Below are positions 15,235 to 48,096 of a DNA stretch of 64,000 nucleotides, one piece after another. Below the pieces are notes generated by a model. The model worked only from the letters and a program-made list of their open reading frames with translations. It was not told where the DNA came from and made no database searches. Origin of the DNA: an uncultured Saprospiraceae bacterium. GTDB lineage: Bacteria; Bacteroidota; Bacteroidia; Chitinophagales; Saprospiraceae. The stretch's first letter is position 1; each line of letters starts with the position of its first letter. The position numbers were made by a program, and so were the translations under genes. The stretch covers positions 1 to 64,000 of the forward strand of contig CALDGQ010000018.1 in the NCBI GenBank assembly GCA_937941765.1, written 5' to 3'.

Positions 15235-16239
15235 TTATATTTGCTTTATATCAAACGCATAATTGTAATTGATTAACTTATTCTTTTCCTTATTTTCAAT
15301 CCAACCTATTTCTTTATGACTAAAATCAATCATTTCAGTAGTTGAGGAAGATTCAAAAGTTGTAGCAACAAGTTTTAAAATTGAAAGTTCTAAATCCGAA
15401 AACAATTCAGAATTAAATTCTCGATTTTCAAATGACGTAAATTTTTCACCCATTATTCCTTTACCATAATCATGAATTATAGTTTCGATATGATTTCCAT
15501 TTGAAATATATTCAAAAATGCTATTAAAATTATATGGTACAGGTCCCCACTTAATCGCCCTATATTTTAGTCCACTAATTGAAAAACACGAGGTTCGAAA
15601 TGCGAGAAAATCAGAATAAAAAAGAAGTTTATTCAACTTGGTTTTAAACGGTTTTACGTTAATTGCAAAGTAAACTATCATCTCAGTCAACTTTGACATA
15701 TTAGGTTTTACATAACCTGTATAAAGATCTGGAAGAGTATTCTTCATCAAGTAATTTTCTACATTTGTATGAAAAAAATTCTTTTTTTCCAGAGAGATCA
15801 TTTCCTCAACACTTGTTATTAAATTTTCTTTTTTCTTCTTATTAAGAACATCCGATAATTGAATAAGTGAAAGAAATTTTTTTGGATCACTCGCTAATTG
15901 CAAAATCCGACCATTAGAAATTGAAGGCATCTCTCCATTTTCATAATTCCGGTAACTATTTATACCAAAGCCTAAAATCTCTGACATTTTACTTGCTGAT
16001 AAGTTATATCTTAATCTAATTTCTTTAATCTCATTTGGAAAAGGGATTTTATACTTATTTCTATATTGATTATATACTTGTAACAAGTTTACATTATCTA
16101 ATTCTGTTGTTGTGAATTGTTCAGCACTATCTTCACATAAATAAAATAAACTATTTAATTGAAAATCTTCTTTCCGAAAATTAAGTGATCTACTTTCATA
16201 AGAAAGCTTCATTTCTTTACCTGAAATCGGGCTTTTCAT
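15235..16239 (-). CDS. MqsA-like antitoxin with HTH and C-terminal Panacea (DUF4065) domain
   Basis: The 334-residue antitoxin has three parts. Residues 1-70 are an MqsA-like N-terminal domain (MKSPISGKEMKL, then YLCEDSAEQFTTTELD). Residues 80-130 are an HTH (EIKEIRLRYNLSASKMSEIL then GFGINSYRNYENGE). Residues 180-330 form a Panacea/SocA-like domain (KPFKTKLNKLLFYSDFLAFR, AIKWGPVPYNF). Panacea domains neutralise diverse toxins in known systems. The zinc-ligand cysteines of classical MqsA are absent (SPISG where CPxCG would be). The ATG at 16239 is preferred over an ATG at 16296 that lies inside the toxin gene. It starts 5 bp after the toxin stop. Confidence 0.85.
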   Translation of the reverse strand: MKSPISGKEMKLSYESRSLNFRKEDFQLNSLFYLCEDSAEQFTTTELDNVNLLQVYNQYRNKYKIPFPNEIKEIRLRYNLSASKMSEILGFGINSYRNYENGEMPSISNGRILQLASDPKKFLSLIQLSDVLNKKKKENLITSVEEMISLEKKNFFHTNVENYLMKNTLPDLYTGYVKPNMSKLTEMIVYFAINVKPFKTKLNKLLFYSDFLAFRTSCFSISGLKYRAIKWGPVPYNFNSIFEYISNGNHIETIIHDYGKGIMGEKFTSFENREFNSELFSDLELSILKLVATTFESSSTTEMIDFSHKEIGWIENKEKNKLINYNYAFDIKQI

Positions 16240-16244
16240 TTTAA

Positions 16245-16589
16245 CTATTTTAATGGATAATTCATTTGATGTTCGGAAATATGGAATGAGATGCAAATCA
16301 CTCTTTCTCCAAAATTTCCTAAAGTTATTTTAATATAAACTTCCTTTTCCTTGATAACTTTCCCAAAAACCCACATATCTGCTCCATTCATCATTCTTTC
16401 TTCTATAGGTCCTTCAGAATAATCTGGTACGGCCAATTTCTTTAAAATTTCTGTTCTTTCAATAGGTTTAATTTCTAAATCAATTAATGTTTGTGCATTC
16501 TTTGATCTACCAAAATAGAAGATATCATAGATAGATAACTTAGTTTTAAATTCATTTAGAAACGATGCTACTTCTTCTTCTGTACTCAT
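16245..16589 (-). CDS. MqsR-like toxin of a type II toxin-antitoxin system
   Basis: The 114-residue protein has an N-terminal FLNEFKTKLSIYDIFYFGRS segment, in which the Phe/Tyr-rich strand and Arg fit an RNase-type fold. The C-terminus is DYSEGPIEERMMNGADMWVF, then YIKITL, then ICISFHISEHQMNYPLK. From memory, this pattern belongs to small proteins annotated as MqsR-family toxins paired with MqsA/Panacea antitoxins. MqsR toxins are mRNA interferases; activity here is inferred from family and partner. It is the first gene of the operon, toxin before antitoxin, as in mqsRA, with a 5-bp gap. Confidence 0.75.
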   Translation of the reverse strand: MSTEEEVASFLNEFKTKLSIYDIFYFGRSKNAQTLIDLEIKPIERTEILKKLAVPDYSEGPIEERMMNGADMWVFGKVIKEKEVYIKITLGNFGERVICISFHISEHQMNYPLK

Positions 16590-20433: not shown

Positions 20434-20841
20434 ATGAGTAGTATGAAACATGAAATACTTACACTAATCTCTCATCCACGTCATGTTTGCAGGGTAGAGT
20501 CTTTTGTAGGAAACTTAGTTGAAAAGTATCAAATCAGCAGCGACCTACGAGGGAACATCCTCATCAGCTTGACGGAAGCGGTCAACAATGCCATCATTCA
20601 TGGTAATGGACAAGATGAAACCAAAATCGTACATGTCAAGTGTATGCACCAACCTGGTTCTATTTCTTTCAAAGTTTCTGATCAAGGACATGGATTCGAT
20701 CCAGCTAGAGTTCCAGATCCAACACAACCAGAAAACATTCTCAAATTAGGTGGTCGCGGTGTCTTTTTAATGAAGGAATTATCTGACAAGATTTTATTCC
20801 ACGACAATGGTAGAACTGTTGAAATTCATTTCAATTTATGA
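20434..20841 (+). CDS. ATP-binding protein, RsbW-like anti-sigma/Ser-Thr kinase (HATPase_c_2)
   Basis: The 135-residue GHKL ATPase has an N-box at EAVNNAIIHGNG (about residues 49-60), a G1 box at SDQGHGFDP (about 82-90) and a G2 region at LGGRGVFLMKELSD (about 108-121). Family members act as anti-sigma factors and kinases of anti-sigma-factor antagonists in partner-switching pathways. No sigma factor or STAS antagonist is adjacent, but an RsbU-like PP2C phosphatase is encoded at 48169. The stop codon overlaps the ybeY start (ATGA), indicating translational coupling. Confidence 0.88.
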   Translation: MSSMKHEILTLISHPRHVCRVESFVGNLVEKYQISSDLRGNILISLTEAVNNAIIHGNGQDETKIVHVKCMHQPGSISFKVSDQGHGFDPARVPDPTQPENILKLGGRGVFLMKELSDKILFHDNGRTVEIHFNL

Positions 20842-21299
20842 GCATTCCTTTTTTCGACCAAGATGCTCAGATCAATTTTTTCTCCGAAGGCATTCAATTT
20901 GAACTAAAAGACGAATCCAAAATCACAACCTGGATCAAATCTGTCATTGCAGAAAACCATAAAGAACTCACTACTCTTAACTTCATTCTCACTTCCGATG
21001 AAGAATTATATCGAATCAACAAACAATATCTTCAACACGATACTTACACGGACATTATTACTTTTCCAATGTCTGAAGAAAACGTAATCGAAGGAGATAT
21101 TTTCGTAAGTATAGATCGCATCAAAGACAACGCAAAAAATCTAAAAGTCACTTTTGAAAATGAACTCCACCGAGTCCTCATACATGGAGTCCTCCACCTC
21201 ATCGGTTACGATGACAAAACTCCAGAGTTAAAAAAAGAAATGAGAAAAGCAGAAGATGAAGCCCTAGAAAAACTAAAAAGTCCTGAAAGGACGACATAA
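20838..21299 (+). CDS. ybeY: rRNA maturation endoribonuclease YbeY
   Basis: A 153-residue single-strand endoribonuclease needed for 16S rRNA 3' processing and ribosome quality control. The metal motif is HGVLHLIGYDD near residues 114-124. The two first His ligands are kept and the third is Asp, as seen commonly in the phylum. An upstream motif, LNFILTSDEELYRINKQYL, and the DTYTDIITFP strand are conserved. It overlaps the preceding gene by 4 bp. The last residues, KSPERTT plus the stop, are encoded by the first unit of the palindromic repeat array (core at 21276-21299), so the native C-terminus was replaced or extended. Confidence 0.93.
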   Translation: MSIPFFDQDAQINFFSEGIQFELKDESKITTWIKSVIAENHKELTTLNFILTSDEELYRINKQYLQHDTYTDIITFPMSEENVIEGDIFVSIDRIKDNAKNLKVTFENELHRVLIHGVLHLIGYDDKTPELKKEMRKAEDEALEKLKSPERTT

Positions 21300-21564
21300 C
21301 TAAAAATGAATGGTAAAACCGTTCATCTCAAAAAAGTCCTGAAAGGACGACATAACTAAAAATGAATGGTAAAACCGTTCATCTCAAAAAGTCCTGAAGG
21401 GACGATATAATCACACCAAATGGTGTAACCCATTTGAAAAGTCCTGAAAGGACGACATAACTAAAAATGAATGGTAAAACCATTCATCTCAAAAAGTCCT
21501 GAAGGGACGATATAATCACACCAAATGGTGTAACCGTTTGAAAAGTCCTAAAGGGACGACATAA
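21276..21564. repeat. Six-unit two-hairpin palindromic repeat array
   Basis: A 24-nt core begins AAAAGTCCTGAAAGGACGAC and ends ATAA. It occurs at 21276-21299, 21332-21355, 21387-21410, 21437-21460, 21492-21515 and 21541-21564, and contains the hairpin GTCCT-GAA-AGGAC, or the variant GTCCT-GAA-GGGAC. The 25-32-nt spacers alternate between two types (ATGAATGGT-AAA-ACCGTTCAT and CAAATGG-TGTAA-CCCATTTG), each itself a hairpin. A third spacer-like hairpin (GATCGGTGAAACCGTTC) follows the last core. It has the spacing of a CRISPR but repeated, palindromic spacers and no cas genes, so it is a REP-type array. Confidence 0.88.
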
Positions 21565-21626
21565 TGCCAACGATCGGTGAAACCGTTCGACAAAGCGAGG
21601 CCACACCCTCGATACGATACAAGTTC

Positions 21627-22808
21627 ATGAAACAAAAACTAAAAAACCTACTTTCCCAAAAAAAAACCGTAACGGTACTCTGGATAATCCTAGGTTTAGT
21701 TTCAGCGATCAAAGCAATTGGCAATCCCGACCTTTACAACAACTACCTAATTTACAAAAACGTCTTTTACCACCTAATCCAAGAAGTAACCTTATATGGA
21801 AAATACAAAGCCCTATACTTCGACCAGAACCACTACGGCCCCGTATTTTCTTTAGTTATCGCACCGTTCGCTATCTTACCGGATTGGTTAGGTGTCATCA
21901 TGTGGAGCCTTGCCAACACCCTCATATTAGTTTGGGCAATCTATCAACTACCGCTCAAAGCAAACAAGAATACATTGATATTGTGGATTTGTGCGCATGA
22001 ATTTTTGACGACCATGTTGAATTTTCAGTTCAATCCAATGATGACAGCAATTATCGTTTTATCATTTGTATTCATTGACAAAAAGAAAGATTTCTGGGCT
22101 GCTTTTTTAATCGTCTTAGGATTTTATATCAAATTATATGGAATCGTTGGACTAGCATTTTTCTTCTTTTCAAAGGATAAACTCAAATTAATCGGATCAC
22201 TTATCTTTTGGGCAGTTGTACTTTTCGTTGCTCCCATGTTGATTTCTTCACCAGAATATATTGTCAATACCTATGTTGAATGGTTCCAAAGGTTAGCTAT
22301 AAAAAATAGTGAAAATGCAGTGTTAGATTCTTGGCAAGACATTTCTGTAATGGGTATGTACCGAAGGATTGTACAAAATCCAGATGTTTCCAATTTACCC
22401 TTTTTGATTGGAGGTTTATTCCTTTTCGCGTTACCTTATTTAAAGATCAATTCATATTCCAACAAACATTTCCGATTATTGATGTTGGCATCTGTTTTAA
22501 TATTTACAGTCATATTTAGTTCCGGATCAGAATCGCCGACCTATATCATTGCTTTTGTAGGAGTTGCCATTTGGTTTGTCCTTCAAAAACGGCCTTACTC
22601 CTATTCTGTAATTGCATTGTTTTTATTTGCCATATTTTTCACAACGCTTTCTCCATCTGATCTAATGCCAAAGTTTATTCGTGAAGGATTCATTCGTCCA
22701 TATGCTTTAAAGGCATTGCCATGTCTTCTGATTTGGTTACGAATTGTTTATGAAATGATGACAATGAGACCAAAATCTAGTTCCGGCGACTTCAGTCGCC
22801 TTTCTTAA
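21627..22808 (+). CDS. GT87/DUF2029-type integral membrane glycosyltransferase
   Basis: A 393-residue polytopic protein (about ten membrane segments) resembling the GT87 mannosyltransferase family, which uses polyprenyl-phosphate sugars at the membrane. The HYGPVFSLVIAPFAILPD segment near residues 70-87 and the GFYIKLYGI segment near 175 are family-like; the acidic catalytic residues are expected in the first loop. Substrate and product are unknown. The frame is open upstream through repeat DNA to 21564; the ATG at 21627 starts MKQKLKNLLS. The C-terminus (SSGDFSRLS) is encoded by a hairpin that looks like a terminator. Confidence 0.72.
   Translation: MKQKLKNLLSQKKTVTVLWIILGLVSAIKAIGNPDLYNNYLIYKNVFYHLIQEVTLYGKYKALYFDQNHYGPVFSLVIAPFAILPDWLGVIMWSLANTLILVWAIYQLPLKANKNTLILWICAHEFLTTMLNFQFNPMMTAIIVLSFVFIDKKKDFWAAFLIVLGFYIKLYGIVGLAFFFFSKDKLKLIGSLIFWAVVLFVAPMLISSPEYIVNTYVEWFQRLAIKNSENAVLDSWQDISVMGMYRRIVQNPDVSNLPFLIGGLFLFALPYLKINSYSNKHFRLLMLASVLIFTVIFSSGSESPTYIIAFVGVAIWFVLQKRPYSYSVIALFLFAIFFTTLSPSDLMPKFIREGFIRPYALKALPCLLIWLRIVYEMMTMRPKSSSGDFSRLS
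22785..22806 (+). terminator. Hairpin plus T-run overlapping the end of the GT87 gene
   Basis: GGCGAC (22785-22790), TTCA loop, GTCGCC (22795-22800), followed by TTTCTT. It forms a good intrinsic terminator but lies inside the coding sequence, with the TAA (22806-22808) just after it. Confidence 0.6.
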
Positions 22809-31458: not shown

Positions 31459-31498
31459 AAAAGCGGCAAATGTTTCACGTGGAACATTTGCCGCTTTT
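31459..31498 (+). terminator. 40-bp palindrome: thrC terminator with a parS site at its centre
   Basis: AAAAGCGGCAAATGTT and its complement AACATTTGCCGCTTTT enclose the parS-like 16-mer TGTTTCACGTGGAACA (31471-31486). Only one mismatch breaks the 40-bp symmetry, and the right end runs into TTTTT. In RNA this is a long stem followed by a T-run, so it should terminate thrC. Confidence 0.75.
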
Positions 31499-32086
31499 TA
31501 TTTACGCACTCTTTGTTTTGCATTTTTAGAATAACATTTACTTGAAATAAATACCAGCCTTTTCTTAAACTTCAATAATGTTCCACGTGGAACATTATCC
31601 GGTGCACAAGTACTTCTCGTTTATTTAAAACTCAACACTTTTCCTTTTACTAAACTACAAAAGCTCTTTTCCTAACGTTACAATGTTCCACGTGGAACAT
31701 TATCCGGTGCACCAGTACTTCTCGTTTAATTAAACCTCAACACTTTGCATTTTACTAAACTGCAAAACTCTTTTCCTAACGTGCAATGTTCCACGTGGAA
31801 CATTATTCATTGAACTAATACTTTTCACTTATTTATACCGCTACAAAAACAAACACTCTTTTCTAAAACACCAACAATGTTCCACGTGAAACATTATCCG
31901 GTGCACCAGTACTTCTCGTTTATTTAAAACTCAACGCTTTTCCTTTTACTAAACTGCAAAACTCTTTTCCTAACGTTACAATGTTCCACGTGAAACATTA
32001 TCCACTGAACTAATACTTTTAACTATTTATATGACTACAAAACAAACACTACTTTATAAAACTTAAACAATGTTCCACGTGAAACA
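31471..32086. repeat. parS: Seven-site parS-like centromere array
   Basis: Seven copies of the palindromic 16-mer TGTTYCACGTGRAACA start at 31471, 31579, 31684, 31787, 31878, 31982 and 32071. One is TGTTTCACGTGGAACA, three are TGTTCCACGTGGAACA and three are TGTTCCACGTGAAACA. These are ParB-site variants close to the bacterial consensus TGTTTCACGTGAAACA. Centre-to-centre spacing is 89-108 bp. The intervening DNA is itself repeated (TTATCCGGTGCACCAGTACT and CTTTTCCTAACGTTACAA recur), so the array is a tandem repeat of about 100 bp. No parA or parB lies in the window. Confidence 0.9.
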
Positions 32087-47783: not shown

Positions 47784-48096
47784 ATAAAATCTGGAATAAA
47801 TATAAATTTAAGTCTAAGAATAATTTTAAGTTTAAATGGGCGACGCACGCTTGTTTCGTAAGTCTACGCGTCTCGACGGTCATTAAACTTAAACGTCGAC
47901 TTAAACTTAAACCAACGCGTCTCGACGATCATTAAACTTAAACTTCGACTTAAACTTAAACTTAAACCAATGCGTCTCGACGGTCATTAAACTTAATCTT
48001 CGACTTAATCCTAAACTTAAACCAATGCGTCTCGACGGTCACTAAACTTCGACTTAATCTTAAACTTAAATTCGGGACTTAATCCTAAACTTATCT
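47784..48096. repeat. Tandem 49-55-bp repeat with CTTAAA-period arms
   Basis: A core GCGTCTCGACGGTCATT recurs at 47868, 47917, 47972 and 48027 (with single changes), giving periods of 49, 55 and 55 bp. The DNA between cores is CTTAAACTTAAAC-type hexamer repeat. The left arm (TTTAAGTCTAAG, TTTTAAGTTTAAATGG) is inverted to it. No gene is seen from 47782 to 48168 beyond these repeats. Confidence 0.8.

Follow-up and report, generated by a model that had tools for sequence, protein, structure and literature searches.

An array in a 64,000-nt stretch of the genome of an uncultured Saprospiraceae bacterium (hereafter the window) is likely to consist of six tandem, non-autonomous REP-like mobile DNA elements of about 50 nt that are moved in trans by a Y1 transposase of TnpA subclass 1.2. 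We found that the repeat unit is present in many copies, that the copies examined are intergenic or nearly so, and that the unit adjoins a subclass-1.2 Y1 gene.

The array (positions 21276–21593) comprises six head-to-tail units of 49–56 nt, located between ybeY and the gene of a GT87 glycosyltransferase. On the plus strand, each unit consists of AAAA, a core hairpin (GTCCT-GAA-AGGAC or a close variant), a GACATAA or GATATAA linker, and a second hairpin whose sequence varies while its pairing is mostly preserved. On the minus strand, the variable hairpin comes first, the linker reads TTAT(G)TC, and the conserved hairpin reads GTCCC-TTC-RGGAC-T. The six cores reported in a first-pass annotation of this DNA were borne out on the plus strand, beginning at 21280, 21336, 21391, 21441, 21496, and 21545 (spacings of 56, 55, 50, 55, and 49 nt): with up to two mismatches allowed, GTCCTGAAAGGAC has eight matches in the window, six of which are the array, against 0.78 expected, and eight matches were reached in none of 100 shuffles. 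When the array was folded as single-stranded DNA, every unit formed two separate hairpins (z = -8.9, with 0 of 100 shuffles as good).

All six units are recognized on the plus strand by R1, a covariance model of the unit that counts the array's own units among its building rows. Unit 1 (21276–21329; core 21280–21292, linker GACATAA, second hairpin 21306–21326) and unit 2 (21332–21385; core 21336–21348, second hairpin 21362–21382) both carry a type A second hairpin and score 70.4 bits each. They are followed by unit 3 (21387–21436; core 21391–21403, type B second hairpin 21417–21436; 55.2 bits), unit 4 (21437–21490; core 21441–21453, fully paired type A second hairpin 21467–21487; 69.2 bits), unit 5 (21492–21540; core 21496–21508, type B second hairpin 21522–21540; 52.1 bits), and unit 6 (21541–21593; core 21545–21557, type C second hairpin 21571–21589; 66.1 bits). 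The spacers had been described as two alternating types; we observed the order A, A, B, A, B, C, which does not alternate strictly. The sixth unit has a second hairpin of its own, and the feature reaches about 21593 rather than ending at 21564. A 105-nt A-B dimer (21332–21436) recurs at 21437–21541 with 95% identity, the second copy starting with unit 4, and part of the array therefore probably grew by duplication of this dimer.

Arrays of such units look like CRISPRs to repeat finders, and the spacing of the cores is indeed regular, but the spacers are the second hairpins of the units and are repeated, and solitary copies of the unit occur elsewhere in the genome. The only Cas1 match in the genome, on contig C75, lies beside an array with a different repeat, CTTCATTTTCGACTTCCATAACAATAAGGATTGAAAC, which is unrelated to the window unit and is present in 52 copies, all 30 of those displayed having distinct spacers. 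We therefore rejected a CRISPR array, and that the units are one, or the relic of one, is scarcely credible. The first-pass annotation, which had set cas genes with this repeat against its own reading, was right to call the feature a two-hairpin palindromic repeat; the single Cas1 locus has the unrelated repeat.

Other features of the window were noted in passing. A tandem repeat with the unit ACGCGTCTCGACGATCATTAAACTTAAAC... lies between two genes at 47866–48070 and is unrelated to the array by eye. At 31471–32086, there are seven exact copies of TGTTYCACGTGRAACA in tandem, 89–108 nt apart, where none is expected. We take TGTTYCACGTGRAACA to be the parS consensus and the cluster to be centromere-like; its neighbors look like genes for threonine synthase and a peptidase, and no ParB was seen by eye among the ORFs of at least 130 aa at 30–37 kb of the window. 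Two overlapping ORFs on the minus strand at 15235–16589 are possibly a toxin-antitoxin pair: the downstream ORF has a SocA/Panacea antitoxin domain and an HTH, and the upstream ORF (114 aa) has no Pfam match.

Both genes beside the array lie on the plus strand. The 3' end of ybeY (20838–21299; PF02130) runs into the first core, and the last codons and stop of this gene (SPERTT*) are read from unit 1, so that its stop codon comes from the array. The GT87 glycosyltransferase ORF (21564–22808; PF09594) has its first ATG within the last core, and its start is more likely to be at 21627. In a sister genome (G001), ybeY ends in ...EKLNI*, and homology to the window extends up to the left edge of the array (21277); R1 gives no match in the roughly 120 nt between the stop codon and the end of the G001 contig. 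The left flank of a solitary copy (L075) occurs in G001, where the following 1.5 kb contain no element, and the right flank is on a different G001 contig, so this locus does not provide a clean empty site. Elements are thus missing from G001 at the corresponding position beside two genes; as two genomes are compared, the difference at ybeY may reflect loss of the array in G001 instead of gain in the Saprospiraceae genome (G000).

The G000 assembly (6.25 Mb in 154 contigs, 81.6% complete) contains further copies of the unit, whose presence elsewhere in the genome had been proposed as a check. A strict core-plus-linker pattern has 13 matches, 7 of them outside the array, and its reversed version has none; a looser pattern has 30 matches compared with 5 for its reverse. 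R1 has at least 90 matches at E ≤ 0.1 (genome-wide R1 counts and zeros refer to 150 candidates scored per genome, of 429 to 2365). At most of the genome copies, the core is followed by a second hairpin that differs in sequence, and at some this hairpin is weak or broken.

We analyzed covariation in 28 units (27 distinct; one false core-like match was removed from 29 rows). In the two-helix structure, 86.5% of cells were paired compared with 74.7% in shuffled sets, 46 cells were changed on both sides compared with 17.4, and the covariation score was 0.349 compared with 0.159; none of these three values was reached in 500 shuffles. The counts of pairs with changes on both sides and of further pair types were reached by 25 and 224 of the 500 shuffles, respectively, and are not clearly above chance. 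Because these two measures are near the shuffles and the unit sequences are related, we take the covariation as support rather than proof. Nearly all of the change is in the second helix, which is paired in 81% of cells, whereas the core helix is paired in 96%; many cores are near-identical across copies, and the ATA of the linker is invariant in the 28-unit consensus. The earlier claim that the stems carry compensated changes holds for the genome as a whole and hardly for the array by itself, where little compensation is seen (mainly G-U/A-U changes) and a T-T mismatch interrupts the type C stem: covariation became strong only after other genome copies were added to the array units.

The placement of the copies bears on what they do. 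Among 20 copies examined (of at least 90 R1 matches, placed relative to mechanically called ORFs of at least 110 aa), 19 are outside ORFs and 1 extends 23 nt into the 3' end of an ORF; the neighboring ORFs are convergent for 7 copies, co-directional for 13, and divergent for none. Location of all 20 at gene 3' ends would suit hairpins that act in the transcript, as terminators, by affecting mRNA stability, or as a structured sRNA, with copies kept for that function, as would the paired structure with compensatory change and two terminator-like sites on the minus strand of the array (1.1 expected). However, because both neighboring genes are on the plus strand, these sites point against both of them, and an intrinsic terminator for ybeY was rejected as the sites are on the wrong strand. 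The units also occur in both orientations, and the table of R1 matches contains, by eye, at least 13 head-to-head pairs (minus then plus, with starts 59–62 nt apart), an arrangement also known from REP dimers. Together with the absence of the array beside ybeY in the sister genome, these features make selection for an RNA or terminator improbable.

Eight loci in the genome match Y1_Tnp, in line with the earlier suggestion that a Y1 transposase gene be sought. At one of them, L034 (contig C41, 26424–26873), three R1 matches lie no more than 180 nt from the gene, two on its upstream side and one on its downstream side; the other seven have no R1 match within 1.5 kb and were rejected as partners on that ground. 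The L034 protein (150 aa) contains NHVH (with N in place of D), WQ, and YILNQRKHH. PMC6006769 gives DH[IV]H, WQ, Y...Q..HH, and a length of about 148 aa as the signature of subclass 1.2, and judged by these motifs L034 is a Y1 (HUH) transposase that matches TnpA subclass 1.2, of the IS200-like class 1. It is above the cut-off of the NCBIfam model NF033573 (IS200/IS605), and the NCBIfam model REP_Tyr_transpos was not reported for it. It also matches two solved structures, the ISHp608 transposase and 2vhg ("TRANSPOSASE ORFA"), the latter presumably ISDra2 TnpA. Given the IS200/IS605 call and the class 1 motif, L034 is, strictly speaking, not a RAYT. The suggestion of RAYT-type copying in the first-pass annotation therefore stands as to a Y1 mechanism, which is the best explanation, and falls as to the enzyme, which is assigned to subclass 1.2 and not to the class 2 of RAYT/TnpA-REP. 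Three other subclass-1.2 genes of the genome (L031, L032, and L033, on C17, C113, and C147) adjoin palindromes of other sequence by eye, among them ACTCC-TTC-GGAGT with a GATAATTTC linker at L032 and GACCCC-AAC-GGGGTC with a second hairpin at L033; perhaps each enzyme has one repeat family.

The same association is found in relatives. In a set of 20 genomes including G000, R1 at E ≤ 1e-6 has at least 60 matches in G000, at least 54 in G001, and at least 9 in G004, and none in the other 17 (150 candidates scored in each). Among the Y1 loci read, a group A gene (our label for subclass-1.2 proteins with M.QSLVKNY...YVWD) is present in four genomes, three of which have R1 matches, the exception being G008, compared with 0 of the 16 others (Fisher 0.0035). 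The G001 orthologue of the C41 gene (L108; protein 69% identical to L034) has six R1 matches around it, and the G004 genes L107 and L121 have four and five flanking matches, one of which overlaps a gene start; across the 28 loci compared, R1 has a single further match, which is weak and about 700 nt away from the gene of L122. The C41-type gene is collinear in G000 and G001, and was therefore probably inherited vertically.

We then considered subclass-1.2 relatives at large, for which at least 80 loci were found in Bacteroidota, Planctomycetota, Verrucomicrobiota, Acidobacteriota, Lentisphaerae, and others. Over the 80 loci listed, there are 61 R1 matches at E ≤ 0.002 (counted of 170, with zone lengths taken from the 31 loci that contain them), and 55 of these are within 400 nt of the gene, at 25 loci; the remaining 55 loci have no match at this threshold near the gene. 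R1-type flanks occur in Chryseobacterium and Gelidibacter, among others. A model-free comparison covered the 57 listed loci with 1.7 kb or more to either side, apart from the partial match L185. The two 400-nt flanks of the gene share sequence above the 99th percentile of mismatched flanks at 35 of the 57 loci and do not do so significantly at 22, whereas flanks 1.25–1.65 kb away share such sequence at none. Sixteen control Y1 loci, four of which (L111, L112, L124, and L126) are untyped by the tyrosine motif, have no R1 match.

The better inter-flank match is inverted at 34 of the 57 loci, and the enzyme is of the IS200 class, both of which could mean that the units are former IS200-type termini scattered by decay or recombination, on which nothing now acts in trans. 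We consider this very unlikely, as at least 90 matches stand against one Y1 gene with flanks of this type, many cores are near-identical, and the gene, collinear in G000 and G001 and vertically kept, does not behave like a typical IS. An IS200/IS605 insertion sequence was itself rejected because of the ratio of matches to flanked genes and the collinear place in G001. Trans-acting mobilization by the C41-type enzyme remains the reading that we prefer.

The unit resembles the Rfam family RF01687 (Acido-Lenti-1), which PMC2864571 lists among possible RNAs, from Acidobacteria and Lentisphaerae. Both have a variable hairpin, a linker of about 11 nt with UUAU, a 5-bp hairpin with a UUC loop, and a trailing U; RF01687 differs in being filed as an sRNA, whereas the window elements are DNA repeats near transposase genes and are below the Rfam cut-off. 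RF01687 matches all six window units on the minus strand with 16.0–20.4 bits (unit 3 by a full-length subthreshold match of 19.0 bits), compared with a gathering score of 37, and we therefore do not claim Rfam membership for them. In G004, five of six RF01687 matches coincide with R1 matches on the opposite strand, which ties the window family to RF01687. Acido-Lenti-1 can adjoin group II introns.

RF01687 was run on 60 of the 80 listed loci and has 27 matches at the gathering score, at 13 loci, of which 25 are within 400 nt of the gene (position p 6e-17); the 16 control Y1 loci have none at E ≤ 0.1. At L164 (Verrucomicrobia), one RF01687 element is present on each side of the gene (54 bits), and at L207 (Zixibacteria), a tandem 72-nt array directly upstream of the gene has the same layout as the window array. 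Among the 20 Y1 loci of G000 and its relatives (19 of them subclass-1.2-like), 2 have RF01687 at E ≤ 0.1. Across 21 elements taken from 15 loci, changes on both sides occur at six of the eight positions of the variable stem, with 17–21 of the 21 elements staying paired, and the cross-phylum core stem is paired in 21–23 of 23 elements; these pairs were counted in a hand-set register, with the window row left out and without a shuffle control, and because the elements were selected by RF01687, the count leans toward the RF01687 structure.

We also scanned 148 genomes of the phylum (38 candidates scored per genome for RF01687). RF01687 is present at E ≤ 1e-5 in 16 and subclass 1.2 at E ≤ 1e-20 in 67; the two occur together in 11 of the 16, a weak association (Fisher 0.04), and element and gene are adjacent (123–201 nt) in 4 of these 11 (G131, G072, G118, and G163). 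Five of the 16 RF01687-positive genomes have no subclass-1.2 gene, four of them from one genus. In genus g53 (G029, G059, G090, and G102), which has RF01687 elements and no subclass-1.2 gene at E ≤ 1e-20, the elements may be orphaned, or a diverged enzyme may fall below the cut-off. Tandem RF01687 arrays with a spacing of about 66–121 nt were seen in G132 (C56 and C129) and in G072 (C30, 19085–19394), the last beginning 201 nt from a subclass-1.2 gene.

We conclude that the "Acido-Lenti-1 RNA" of RF01687 is very probably a DNA element of the same kind as the window unit and not a dedicated sRNA gene. A 2026 Tannerella paper takes Acido-Lenti-1 copies as possible regulators, which speaks for a selected RNA, whereas the occurrence of copies near one transposase type in several phyla speaks against it. 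The family or its accession is also named in PMC7682815. In the passages of the Acido-Lenti-1 literature that were consulted, we found no tie to a transposase; an earlier mention, for example in supplements, is possible. In the literature found on subclass 1.2, REPIN/RAYT, and palindromes with tyrosine or Y1 transposases, no title or abstract makes the link.

The unit resembles a REP in being a short palindrome with many copies in intergenic DNA that also flanks a Y1 gene, and it can be compared with several known systems. As with GTAG REPs and their RAYT/TnpA-REP partners (PMC3733652, PMC6006769, and PMC3116915), short palindromes have many intergenic copies, form inverted pairs and tandem clusters, and flank a single Y1 HUH gene. 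The window unit differs in having two hairpins instead of one and no GTAG foot, which was found neither in the 28-unit consensus nor in the 24-row cross-phylum set, and its partner has the class 1 motif Y..NQ..HH instead of the class 2 motif Y...NP. In TIRYTs/TIRtrons (PMC3733652), a Y1 gene likewise lies in inverted repeats, some of them doubly palindromic and some repeated in the genome, but the 26 TIRYTs fall in subclasses 2.1, 2.2, and 2.5 (PMC6006769) rather than 1.2, a comparison made by description and not by sequence. CGTC-tagged REPs, which are also known in Bacteroidetes and for which the authors of PMC3733652 found no transposase, resemble the unit in that its core hairpin, on the minus strand, has CGTC at its foot; compared by description, they have a stem of 8–9 bp instead of 5 bp, and the window unit has two hairpins with CGTC partly within the stem. 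We rejected a CGTC REP because there is no unpaired CGTC foot and the 5-bp core stem includes GTC. With subclass 1.2 as described in PMC6006769, the enzymes studied here share a length of about 150 aa, [DN]HVH, WQ, Y...Q..HH, and, by inference, occurrence in Bacteroidota. That paper describes the subclass as generally without hairpin structures, whereas elements are present near many of the relatives found here, which, as assigned by similarity, extend beyond Cyanobacteria and Bacteroidetes.

By analogy with IS608, ISDra2, and the RAYTs, the C41 enzyme, as the sole Y1 protein of its genome with such flanks, would recognize the element when it is folded in single-stranded DNA, probably that of the lagging-strand template. 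Its tyrosine would then cut and join at or near the conserved linker, whose invariant ATA is a candidate cut or guide site, and the element would be moved or copied in trans into the gaps that follow the 3' ends of genes. One or more such insertions, followed by duplication of the 105-nt dimer, probably gave rise to the array.

On balance, we lean slightly toward a broader reading, in which subclass 1.2 is a widespread, vertically kept family of class 1 HUH enzymes with lineage-specific, co-evolving two-hairpin elements, forming a third REP-type system that has Acido-Lenti-1 as its substrate. Such a system would stand beside GTAG REP/RAYT and TIRYT, and would span at least Bacteroidota, Planctomycetota, Verrucomicrobiota, and Acidobacteriota. 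The vertical retention of the enzyme hints that it and its elements may benefit the host, for instance by processing single-stranded DNA at replication forks. The trans-mobilization reading by itself gives a little-studied orphan subclass a likely substrate and makes an unexplained Rfam sRNA family, copies of which are currently annotated as ncRNAs, testable as a mobile DNA element. If it is confirmed, both main branches of the Y1 family would have REP-type systems.
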